DNA from: Bacteroidales bacterium KHT7
GTDB taxonomy: Bacteria > Bacteroidota > Bacteroidia > Bacteroidales > Bacteroidaceae
Length of the DNA stretch: 64,000 nt
Direction of reading: 5' to 3'
Assembly: GCA_900102385.1 (NCBI GenBank)
Contig: FNBQ01000005.1
Coordinates: forward strand, 99,322 to 163,321
A program made the position numbers and the translations under genes. The notes beneath the pieces are model-generated. The model ran no database searches and was not told the origin of the DNA. It saw only the letters and a program-made list of their open reading frames with translations. Below are positions 33,215 through 35,941 of the stretch, piece by piece. Within the stretch, counting starts at the first letter, position 1. Each line of letters starts with the position of its first letter.

Positions 33215-34294
33215 ATGAAGCAGAATATACCAGTTATGAGCGTTACAGGCTCGGACAATACGGGCTTTGCCGGAGTTCAGGCAGACATACGCACAATCTC
33301 GGCTCTCGGAGCGCGTGCCGTCACGGCAATTACTTCGATAACCGTTCAGGATGCCTACGGGATTCAGAGCATCCACGACCTTCCGGCAAGCATGGTGGCT
33401 GGACAGACAAAGGCGGTGTTCAACGATGTGCATCCGCGAGCCGTGAAGGTGGGGATGGTGCGTGATGCCGAGACTGTAAGGGCTTTGCGAAACGAGATTA
33501 TCGGCTGCCGGAAGATTGTTCTCGTGCCGGGAATCTTGTCGTCGCATGGCGAGCGTCTGCTCAGCGATGCCGCCATCGAGGCATGGAAGTCGAACCTCAT
33601 TCCCGAGGCTTCTCTGCTCATACTGAAGTGTAGCGAGGCCGAACTTCTTCTCGGCATGACCGTCGCCACAAACGACGATATGGTTCGTGCCGCAGAAAGG
33701 CTTGTCGAGATGGGAGCGCAGGCCGTGATGCTCCGTGGCGGACATCAGACCGAGGGAATGCTCACCGCCATTCTCTATGCCGAGGGACAGAAGCGTTTCT
33801 TCTCGTCGCACAACACCGAAGGCTGGCAGAAGCACGGCGTTGCCGGAGTATTCTCTACGGCGGTGGCAACGCGCATGGCTATGGGCGACGATGTTTTTCA
33901 GGCGGTGGCTAATGCCCATGCCTATGTTCACAGTCAGGTGGTTTATTCGGTAACGGCAGAAAGTCGTCTGGCGCGTCCTGCCGACATTTACAATCGTTTT
34001 ATGTCGATAATTGCCGAGAATTACAAGTCGGCTCACGATGTAGCTTTCTATGCCGGAAGACTCTCCATAACAACACGTTACCTCTGTCAAGTTACGGATA
34101 AGGCTGTGGGCAAGTCGCCAAAGCAGATTATTGCCGAATACATAATGCACGAGGCGGTAACGCTTCTCGAAAACTCGCGTCTCACCATTCAGGAGATTTC
34201 CGACAGCCTTGGCTTTTCGTCTCAGGCAATGTTTAGCAAGTTCTTCCGTAATAATTGCGGAAAATCGCCGACTCAAGTCCGTAAAGACTACTGA
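33215..34294 (+). CDS. ThiD/PdxK-like kinase domain fused to AraC DNA-binding domain
   Basis: From the ATG at 33215 the protein has 359 residues. Residues 1 to about 245 align by eye with ThiD-type kinases (SVTGSDNTGFAGVQADIRTISALGA, then TVQDAYGIQS and VKVGMV). Where ThiD has the anion-hole and catalytic loop HGTGCT, this protein has HGVAGV (207-212), so the catalytic Cys/Asp position is lost and kinase activity is doubtful. The last hundred residues are an AraC helix-turn-helix domain (LTIQEISDSLGFSSQAMFSKFFRNNCG). It is followed directly by pdxS-pdxT, so a regulator that senses a B6 vitamer or a pyrimidine through a dead kinase is the natural inference. Confidence 0.85.
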   Translation: MKQNIPVMSVTGSDNTGFAGVQADIRTISALGARAVTAITSITVQDAYGIQSIHDLPASMVAGQTKAVFNDVHPRAVKVGMVRDAETVRALRNEIIGCRKIVLVPGILSSHGERLLSDAAIEAWKSNLIPEASLLILKCSEAELLLGMTVATNDDMVRAAERLVEMGAQAVMLRGGHQTEGMLTAILYAEGQKRFFSSHNTEGWQKHGVAGVFSTAVATRMAMGDDVFQAVANAHAYVHSQVVYSVTAESRLARPADIYNRFMSIIAENYKSAHDVAFYAGRLSITTRYLCQVTDKAVGKSPKQIIAEYIMHEAVTLLENSRLTIQEISDSLGFSSQAMFSKFFRNNCGKSPTQVRKDY

Positions 34295-34395
34295 AAATCT
34301 GACAAAAAGAAAGCATTAGGATTGTTTCGACAGAAATTTTCCAGATGTTTTTTTTGTTTGTTTCGGCTTATTGTTTTCTCTTTTCGGAATAGAAT

Positions 34396-34427
34396 TTTGT
34401 CGTTTTGTGCAAATGAAATTTATTTTG
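34396..34427 (+). promoter_or_regulatory. Promoter of pdxS-pdxT
   Basis: TTTG at 34396-34399, a 20-nt spacer and TTATTTTG at 34420-34427 (seven of eight consensus positions when TAnnTTTG is allowed one change). The leader to the ATG is about 30 nt. This 170-nt gap is the likely target of the upstream regulator. Confidence 0.6.
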
Positions 34428-34464
34428 CACCACAAATTTCAAACAAAAGAAAATAAAACGCAAA

Positions 34465-35337
34465 ATGGAAAACAGAGTAGAACTAAATCGTAATTTGGCG
34501 CAGATGCTCAAGGGCGGCGTCATCATGGATGTAACAACCCCAGAGCAGGCTCGCATTGCCGAGGAAGCTGGTGCTTGTGCAGTAATGGCATTGGAGCGTA
34601 TTCCGGCAGATATCCGCGCAGCAGGCGGCGTTAGCCGTATGAGCGACCCTAAGATGATTAAGGGCATTCAGGAAGCTGTCTCAATCCCAGTCATGGCAAA
34701 GTGCCGTATCGGTCATTTTGTTGAGGCTCAGATTCTCGAGGCCATCGAGATTGACTATATCGACGAGAGCGAGGTTCTCAGTCCGGCAGATGATGTTTAT
34801 CACATTGACAAGCGCAAGTTCAAAGTGCCTTTCGTTTGTGGTGCTAAGGATCTTGGCGAGGCATTGCGCCGAATCAACGAGGGTGCTACAATGATTCGTA
34901 CAAAGGGCGAGCCGGGCACGGGCGATGTTATTCAGGCCGTTCGCCACATGCGCATGATGCAGAGCGAGATCCGTCGCCTTGTTTCAATGAGCGAGGACGA
35001 GCTTTACGAGGCAGCAAAGCAGCTTCGCGTGCCTTACGATTTGGTAGATTTCGTTCATAATAACGGCAAACTTCCAGTCGTAAACTTCGCAGCCGGCGGC
35101 GTTGCAACTCCAGCCGATGCGGCTCTGATGATGCAACTCGGTGCTGAGGGCGTTTTTGTTGGTAGCGGTATCTTCAAGAGCGGTGACCCGGTAAAGCGTG
35201 CTCAGGCAATCGTAAAGGCTGTTACAAACTACAACAATCCTAAGGTCATTGCCGAATTGAGCGAGGATCTTGGCGAGGCTATGGTTGGCATCAACGAGAG
35301 TGAGATTGAGTTGCTGATGGCTGAAAGAGGTAAGTAA
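34465..35337 (+). CDS. pdxS: Pyridoxal 5'-phosphate synthase subunit PdxS
   Basis: A 290-residue (beta/alpha)8-barrel protein of the Pdx1/SOR/SNZ family. It starts RNLAQMLKGGVIMDV; the two catalytic lysines are in VMAKCRIGH and MIRTKGEPGTG, and the end VGINESEIELLMAERG is typical. It builds PLP from ribose 5-phosphate, glyceraldehyde 3-phosphate and ammonia. The pdxT start follows its stop by one nucleotide, so the two subunits are translated together. Length and motifs are fully normal. Confidence 0.97.
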   Translation: MENRVELNRNLAQMLKGGVIMDVTTPEQARIAEEAGACAVMALERIPADIRAAGGVSRMSDPKMIKGIQEAVSIPVMAKCRIGHFVEAQILEAIEIDYIDESEVLSPADDVYHIDKRKFKVPFVCGAKDLGEALRRINEGATMIRTKGEPGTGDVIQAVRHMRMMQSEIRRLVSMSEDELYEAAKQLRVPYDLVDFVHNNGKLPVVNFAAGGVATPADAALMMQLGAEGVFVGSGIFKSGDPVKRAQAIVKAVTNYNNPKVIAELSEDLGEAMVGINESEIELLMAERGK

Positions 35338-35338
35338 T

Positions 35339-35941
35339 ATGATTATTGCAATATTAGCATTACAGGGAGCATTTGCTGAACATCAGCAGATGCTCCAAAA
35401 ATTAGGTGCCGACTCTGTTCTGATTCGCAATCTGCCCGACTGGCAGGAATTTATCGGTCGCGACGAGCCGAAAGGACTCATCATTCCGGGCGGAGAGAGT
35501 ACGGCAATGAAACGCATCATGCGCGATGAGAATCTCGTAGAGCCTATCCGCAGCGCAATTGCCGGCGGACTTCCTACTTTTGGAACATGCGCCGGAATGA
35601 TTCTCTTGTCAAAAAAGATTGAGGGCAACGATTCTGAATCGTTCCTTGGCAATGCTGCCATGAACGTGGTTGTGCGCAGAAACGCCTACGGCCGTCAGCT
35701 CGGCAGTTTCTATACCGAAGAATCCTTCGGCGACATCTCATCTTCCGAAGACGAGAAAGTGCCGATGACATTCATCCGCGCTCCGTTTATCGTTGAGGTG
35801 GGCGAGGGCGTAAAGGTGCTTGCGAAGGTCGATGGCAACATTGTGGCTGTTCGTCAGGGTAGTCTGCTTGCCACTTCATTCCATCCCGAACTGAATGATG
35901 ATTTGAGGGTTCACCGATATTTCCTTGGTATGATAGGTTAG
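35339..35941 (+). CDS. pdxT: PLP synthase glutaminase subunit PdxT
   Basis: A 200-residue class I glutaminase. It has GGESTAMKR near residue 50, the nucleophile Cys in TFGTCAGMILL, and the His-Glu pair in TSFHPEL. It hydrolyses glutamine and passes ammonia to PdxS. The gene is almost fused to pdxS and ends before a terminator. Length matches the family. Confidence 0.96.
   Translation: MIIAILALQGAFAEHQQMLQKLGADSVLIRNLPDWQEFIGRDEPKGLIIPGGESTAMKRIMRDENLVEPIRSAIAGGLPTFGTCAGMILLSKKIEGNDSESFLGNAAMNVVVRRNAYGRQLGSFYTEESFGDISSSEDEKVPMTFIRAPFIVEVGEGVKVLAKVDGNIVAVRQGSLLATSFHPELNDDLRVHRYFLGMIG

Follow-up and report, generated by a model that had tools for sequence, protein, structure and literature searches.

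The closest described system to the locus analyzed here is PdxR, a MocR/GntR-type regulator of Firmicutes and Actinobacteria in which an enzyme-like sensor is fused to a DNA-binding domain and which is encoded beside pdxST; apo-PdxR activates pdxST, and pyridoxal phosphate (PLP) acts as the anti-activator (PMC5320631). In a 64,000-nucleotide stretch of contig FNBQ01000005.1 of Bacteroidales bacterium KHT7 (here called the window), a gene for a 359-residue protein (33215..34294, + strand) joins a ThiD-type kinase domain to an AraC-type helix-turn-helix (HTH), and directly 3′ of it, on the same strand, follow pdxS and then pdxT. We consider it likely, on the sequence evidence laid out below, that this fusion is an AraC-type regulator of pdxST with a pseudokinase as its sensor; that it activates, and that a vitamin B6 vitamer damps this activation, is what we infer from promoter layout and genomic context.

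The fusion and PdxR are built from different parts. PdxR combines an aminotransferase fold with a GntR-type domain, whereas the protein studied here combines a ThiD-type kinase fold with an AraC-type domain; Pfam gives only PF08543, PF12833, and PF00165 and thus neither a GntR-type HTH nor an aminotransferase. Moreover, PdxR responds to PLP, whereas a PLP response of the kinase-AraC fusion is a prediction. ThiR, an archaeal thiamine phosphate synthase-like regulator, is similar in that a vitamin-enzyme domain regulates vitamin genes, but differs in enzyme fold, vitamin, DNA-binding domain, and its occurrence in archaea; no thiamine phosphate synthase-like domain was found in the fusion by Pfam or among the best 25 of 31 NCBIfam matches. 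With ThiD-type kinases of hydroxymethylpyrimidine (HMP), HMP phosphate (HMP-P), or pyridoxal, the fusion shares the fold and the substrate-side residues, but GTGC is missing from all aligned relatives, the ATP half is deleted in one branch, and an HTH is added. With AraC-family activators, it shares the C-terminal HTH_18 domain, and its predicted binding site has their pattern of tandem direct repeats that reach the upstream promoter element, but the sensor of AraC is a cupin-type arm domain and that of the fusion a pseudokinase. While enzyme-derived sensors for vitamin genes are already known (PdxR, ThiR), the pairing of an AraC domain with a dead vitamin kinase is a new version of this idea. 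The literature searched, with most subscription papers outside the search, contained no description of the fusion as a regulator or of B6-gene regulation in this group, and the accessible part of PMC5320631, on PLP-responsive regulators, does not mention AraC.

A kinase fold without its catalytic loop

The original prediction of a kinase fold and an intact AraC domain directly before pdxST was borne out by Pfam and NCBIfam matches. The kinase-fold domain, our predicted ligand sensor (about residues 14 to 248; 33254..33958, + strand), matches Phos_pyr_kin (PF08543, E 4.1e-58), and the C-terminal part matches both HTH_18 (PF12833; E 6.2e-18, 65.3 bits against a cut-off of 33.6; about residues 279 to 357, 34049..34285, + strand) and HTH_AraC (40.8 bits, cut-off 26.6), giving the double HTH of the AraC type; the Pfam search used a 371-residue reading starting at 33179. 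Downstream on the + strand, pdxS (34465..35337; TIGR00343, 507.5 bits, cut-off 438.45) and pdxT (35339..35941; TIGR03800, 212.7 bits, cut-off 105.55), coding for a subunit of PLP synthase and its glutaminase subunit, respectively, both exceed the NCBIfam equivalog cut-offs. The fusion gene is under selection, since its ratio of nonsynonymous to synonymous substitution rates against the sister species G076 (G denotes genomes and L loci) is 0.041 overall (kinase part, 0.055; HTH part, 0.018).

Of the features that characterize ThiD, the fusion has the kinase fold and the substrate-side residues, as seen by Foldseek and residue counts, and lacks both the GTGC loop with its catalytic Cys and a score above the TIGR00097 equivalog cut-off (188.1 versus 204.95 bits). 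The alignment confirms the residues quoted earlier, that is, GVAGV in the place of the GTGCT of ThiD, with the substrate-side motifs kept: H207-G-V-A-G-V212 (33833..33850, + strand) aligns with HGTGC(T/S) of solved ThiD proteins and of the genome's own ThiD, so that the catalytic Cys and its loop are lost. This loss is no private decay, as 1122 homologues were found at E<=1e-3 and all 120 listed ones carry both domain families. The prediction had called for a check of the lost motif in homologues, and the loss turned out to be complete: the catalytic Cys is absent from 119/119 listed database relatives, 45/45 full-length locus proteins, and 35/35 shortened ones (199/199 aligned; the 119 database and 80 locus proteins may overlap). 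In the 119 listed homologues besides the window protein, position 209, Thr in ThiD, is always Val or Ile, and position 211, Cys in ThiD, is always Gly, Ala, or Ser. For comparison with stand-alone ThiD, 33 loci were examined, some of which hold other proteins; 22 of them yielded a ThiD that met a filter which would admit a changed Cys, and HGTGC is kept in all 22.

The window protein retains G12, S13, D14, Q22, D24, Q45, K78, and G80 on the substrate side. G12, S13, D14, G20, D24, Q45, K78, and G80, which we take to be the substrate-side lining of the pocket, are nearly constant among the listed homologues, with G12, D14, G20, D24, K78, and G80 invariant in 119/119, S13 present in 116/119, and Q45 in 106/119; G12, D14, and D24 are kept in at least 197 of the 199 aligned relatives. 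R174, H207, and G208 are likewise invariant (119/119 listed). The genome also encodes a ThiD with HGTGC and a pyridoxamine-kinase-like protein with HGTGD, so other proteins fill the catalytic roles. We think it likely that the kinase domain is a pseudokinase serving as a ligand sensor.

One branch goes further. In the family sample, pdxS genes that lack an adjacent full-length fusion mostly adjoin a shortened one of 293 to 339 residues, in which the stretch R174 to H177 is gapped (35/35), HGTGC has become HGxxN (32/35), and G12-S13-D14, G20, Q22, D24, Q45, and G80 are kept (35/35). In this branch, most of the kinase's ATP half is gone, and the substrate-side residues stay. AlphaFold2 models of the full-length protein and of one shortened protein (296 residues) reached mean predicted local distance difference test scores of 86.5 and 87.1, respectively, with the shortened model missing strands 134-138, 170-179, 182-189, and 192-198 of the full-length one. 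Foldseek searches with the full-length model returned first ThiD/HMP-phosphate kinases (ranks 1 to 8, TM-score 0.82-0.93 by target length) and then the pyridoxal kinases of Bacillus subtilis and Staphylococcus aureus. In a maximum-likelihood tree built quickly from the kinase part (82 rows, 17 near-copy rows having been removed), one branch with support 100 separates all 64 fusions from all 18 ThiD proteins, and thus a single fusion event fits the sequences; the shortened forms fall into one group (support 96) together with the full-length proteins of G181, G219, and G256. Genome G013 carries a second, shortened fusion away from pdxS (L112:3273-4187, − strand), with a full-length one adjoining pdxS.

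Linkage to pdxST

Next to the lost motif, linkage to pdxST was the other property by which the prediction was to be judged. The surroundings of all 54 pdxS places were read, and whole genomes were searched where no fusion was seen nearby. Within the window's GTDB family, pdxS occurs in 53/199 genomes; 41 of these have the fusion next to it, and in five (G239, G211, G174, G184, and G176) the fusion lies elsewhere in the genome, while the whole-genome search found no complete fusion in seven (G069, G167, G217, G158, G191, G175, and G237), six of which are from one genus. At E<=1e-60, the fusion occurs in 10/199 family genomes, all 10 of them bearing pdxS; this threshold misses shortened forms, and the 146 family genomes without pdxS are thus covered for full-length fusions only. 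At the order level, pdxS is present in 13/295 genomes, with the fusion adjacent in 5 and lacking in 8 (G000 and G069 belong to both the family and the order sample), and at the class level pdxS exceeds the cut-off in 3/296 genomes. Altogether, the fusion occurs in at least four GTDB families (f1, f14, f36, and f44).

When all loci are gathered, 70/82 fusion genes are at most 700 bp from pdxS, either co-directional or divergent, instead of being mostly thiamine-linked or scattered, as would have spoken against the idea. The 12 unlinked genes include those of G184, G176, and G899 at 2.3-2.4 kb from pdxS, a second copy (G013x) whose genome also has an adjacent one, and those of G239, G839, G909, G877, and G943, where pdxS lies further off or on another contig; the remaining three belong to genomes without a pdxS match (see below). 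The tallies exclude L005 (which shares its contig with L056) and L015 (truncated at a contig end), and the fusions of G174 and G211, found later, stand outside the 82-locus tally. Gene starts were set by hand for L013, L014, and L161, which an automatic filter had failed, before the motif work and for L100 before the 82 loci were scored.

Selected neighbors of non-fusion pdxS genes and of unlinked fusion genes, a subset of all locus neighbors, contained no thiamine genes, and those scanned where the fusion is not adjacent to pdxS contained no transcription-factor families. Neighbors of these pdxS genes encode phosphoenolpyruvate carboxykinase, a major facilitator superfamily (MFS) transporter, AMP-binding, SpoIIE, and glycoside hydrolase GH26 proteins, a Zn peptidase, a racemase, an aldose epimerase, and others, among them one protein without a family; neighbors of the unlinked fusions (glycosyltransferase, GH57, MFS, patatin, Hsp70) show no common B6 theme. 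At L130, L132, and L134 (G379, G296, and G445), whose family has pdxS without the fusion, an aldose 1-epimerase gene directly precedes pdxS.

A predicted tandem-repeat operator at the pdxS promoter

A search for conserved palindromes had been suggested for the gap between the fusion gene and pdxS (34295-34464). A conserved element is present there, but the shared element is a direct repeat, and the palindromic operator was rejected. Expectation-maximization without protein input on 18 non-redundant fusion-pdxS intergenic regions (of 23, five near-copies having been dropped) found the motif GaAcAATgTTTTaC.AtAT.GGAACagat.TTTgTCcg in 17 of the 18 regions, all but that of G830. It comprises two GGAACAnnnTTTT-type half-sites in direct orientation with a 21-bp period and has a log-likelihood of 318, compared to 96-105 in six base-shuffled sets. 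In the branch with shortened forms, a separate search of 24 regions that was not seeded by the first matrix recovered the same core, TTTGTCAaAAagGGAACA (459 versus 104-112); the shuffled controls of both searches had fewer restarts than the real runs (20-25 versus 50-60). The final matrix was built from 16 regions, omitting G830 (no site) and G1072 (a site, found to be divergent). When each training region was left out in turn, 14/16 still scored at least 17.5 bits; G802 fell to 2.0, and G920, whose region was cut at 250 bp, was missed.

In the window, the predicted operator before pdxS lies at 34366..34403 (+ strand; 30.4 bits, or 24.4 with this region excluded from the training), and a second, weaker tandem repeat precedes the fusion gene (33148..33185, + strand; 16.9 bits). 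These two outscore every other position on either strand of the window, the third best, with 14.7 bits, lying elsewhere. They also coincide with the two exact matches in the whole genome to a consensus covering both, one before the fusion gene and one before pdxS; eight further places match with two mismatches, versus three for the reversed control. Since the only exact matches are at this locus, the circuit in this species likely consists of the fusion gene and pdxST. In many tight operons, the site is found before the fusion gene rather than before pdxS.

The published Bacteroidetes promoter consensus has TTTG at about −33 and TAnnTTTG at −7 (PMC7366714, PMC6847099). By this yardstick, the proximal half-site has its TTTG (34396-34399) at about −36 to −33, overlapping the −33 element, and a −7-like box of pdxS, TTATTTTG (34420..34427, + strand), follows at a fixed offset from the operator with one mismatch to TAnnTTTG. 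This spacing is shared, with [TC]TTTG at offset 56-58 in 43/52 distinct sites of at least 8 bits. Visual inspection of the fusion-pdxS gaps of L007, L008, L062, L161, L162, and L169 shows an inverted GGAAC...GTTCC, with T runs after it, that overlaps the proximal half-site and possibly serves as a terminator for the fusion gene or as a third half-site.

The predicted operator tracks the fusion

Outside the training set, a site of at least 10 bits was seen at 7/10 pdxS genes whose fusion lies elsewhere in the genome (G174, 31.9 bits; G239, 31.4; G839, 29.0; G899, 26.2; G909, 25.8; G943, 15.6; G877, 10.9). In G174, the site was seen first, and a fusion with both domains was found afterwards, 5.8 kb away. 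In genomes without a complete fusion (E<=1e-25), by contrast, 0/14 pdxS genes reach 8 bits within 500 bp, the best scoring 7.7, with random 500-bp pieces doing so in 0.9% of cases. The hypergeometric probability of 7/10 versus 0/14, calculated by hand, is ∼3.5e-4, a value that ignores relatedness, six of the 14 being from one genus. Among all fetched loci, sites of at least 20 bits are found at pdxS promoters with one exception, considered below. A conserved, predicted operator at the pdxS promoter that follows the presence of the fusion supports the predicted control of pdxST.

Mechanism and alternatives

We propose that a dimer of the fusion protein would occupy both direct half-sites, next to and across the −33 element, and would recruit RNA polymerase under vitamin B6 scarcity; a B6 vitamer, most likely pyridoxal or PLP, would fill the old substrate pocket, whereupon activation would stop. 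Two targets are predicted in its own genome, the fusion gene itself, implying autoregulation, and pdxST. AraC-type activators classically use tandem direct half-sites that end at the upstream promoter element, and we favor activation because the site ends at −33, at a fixed distance to the −7 box, as in such activators. A B6 vitamer is favored as the signal because PdxST makes PLP directly and the sensor derives from a vitamin kinase; it would end activation in the way PLP does with the unrelated PdxR (PMC5320631).

Several observations weigh against this reading, including the two on which its strongest alternatives draw. Three pdxS genes whose fusion lies elsewhere score low (G184, 6.5 bits; G176, 5.2; G211, −3.5), the assembly of G211 having 8% contamination. 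Furthermore, the first matrix reaches 8 bits in only 43/82 fusion loci; 27 of the 39 low-scoring loci belong to the branch with its own site variant (near-copies outside the tree being placed there on the basis of similarity), another five are unlinked fusions for which the scored region did not include pdxS, and a few lack a good site, G830 among them. Three genomes of one genus (G983, G1071, and G1057; completeness 92, 71, and 93%) have the fusion and no pdxS match. Finally, a 24.0-bit site at L200:938-975 lies between an MFS gene and a divergent, kinase-less AraC-type gene in G296, a genome without the fusion; with this sibling gene carrying the same site, the operator is not exclusive to the fusion. 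The L200 site may indicate the DNA specificity of the HTH lineage that contributed to the fusion. For the three genomes with no pdxS match, the operator upstream of the full-length fusion (L179, L181, and L182) scores 5.8, 7.1, and >8 bits, respectively.

The same architecture could act as a repressor, with the B6-loaded protein blocking the pdxST promoter and leaving it when B6 is scarce. The overlap of the proximal half-site with the −33 element, where a repressor could sit, fits this as well; tandem direct half-sites ending at the upstream element are, however, the classical arrangement of AraC-type activators, and of the two sites in the window the one before the fusion gene is the weaker, which makes pdxS the stronger target. 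We therefore regard repression as unlikely.

A shade less probable still is a pdxST regulator whose ligand is the thiamine precursor HMP or HMP-P, tuning PLP synthesis to thiamine metabolism. Gln45, found in most listed relatives and all shortened proteins (counts above), is as in HMP kinases, the solved pyridoxal kinases of B. subtilis and S. aureus having Met-Asp at this position (the pyridoxal kinase query piece matched 2i5b exactly), and the closest solved folds are HMP-phosphate kinases. Against this, the linkage is to pdxST, with no thiamine gene among the selected neighbors scanned, and Gln likewise stands at position 45 in 7l07, the ancestor common to both kinase types, so this residue does not exclude a B6 vitamer. 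As a means of telling B6 from HMP, pocket residues were set aside, since Gln45 points to HMP kinases and cannot decide. We thus continue to regard a B6 sensor as likely, at the level of a prediction because the Gln45 pocket resembles HMP kinases more.

That the fusion is a working trigger enzyme, phosphorylating HMP or pyridoxal via another residue while the AraC part adds regulation, seems very improbable: the full-length fold is intact in the model and R174, H207, and G208 are invariant, but the loop Cys and Thr are lost throughout, and the shortened branch has kept its pdxS linkage without the R174-H177 stretch and several strands. Least credible of all is a chance neighborhood in which the fusion has other targets and simply travels with pdxST, as some unlinked fusions, three of them in genomes without pdxS, might suggest, given that the linkage holds across several orientations and gaps and that the site sits at pdxS even where the fusion lies elsewhere.

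Genomic surroundings

The source genome comprises 3.79 Mb in 61 contigs. Upstream of the fusion gene, on the opposite strand, lie a TtcA-like gene (below the model cut-off) and mnmE. Directly downstream of pdxT, the window contains a match to the FopS small RNA family (Bacteroidetes, paralogous; RF04319, 35950-36017, − strand; 73.2 bits, gathering threshold 56). A search for a thiamine pyrophosphate riboswitch near the genome's thiD gave no Rfam match in stretches of 19 kb and 10 kb and is uninformative as a contrast.

Implications

Seven of the 120 listed homologues are named, all as HMP/HMP-P kinase (P0002, P0026, P0044, P0076, P0079, P0101, and P0103). This naming is likely a misannotation, and pathway predictions may as a consequence count enzymes that are absent. 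On the whole we lean, with some reservation, toward a history in which a vitamin kinase was joined to an AraC domain a single time in Bacteroidales, catalysis died, and the substrate pocket became the B6 gauge of a fusion-pdxST circuit, with one branch losing the ATP half to leave a half-kinase sensor; this AraC-family analogue of PdxR would span at least four GTDB families of the order, where it is now annotated as HMP kinase. If this is true, pdxST-carrying Bacteroidales would gain a regulator of PLP synthesis, none having been seen in the literature searched, and the graded natural series from kinase to half-kinase sensor would allow one to ask which part of an enzyme suffices to sense.

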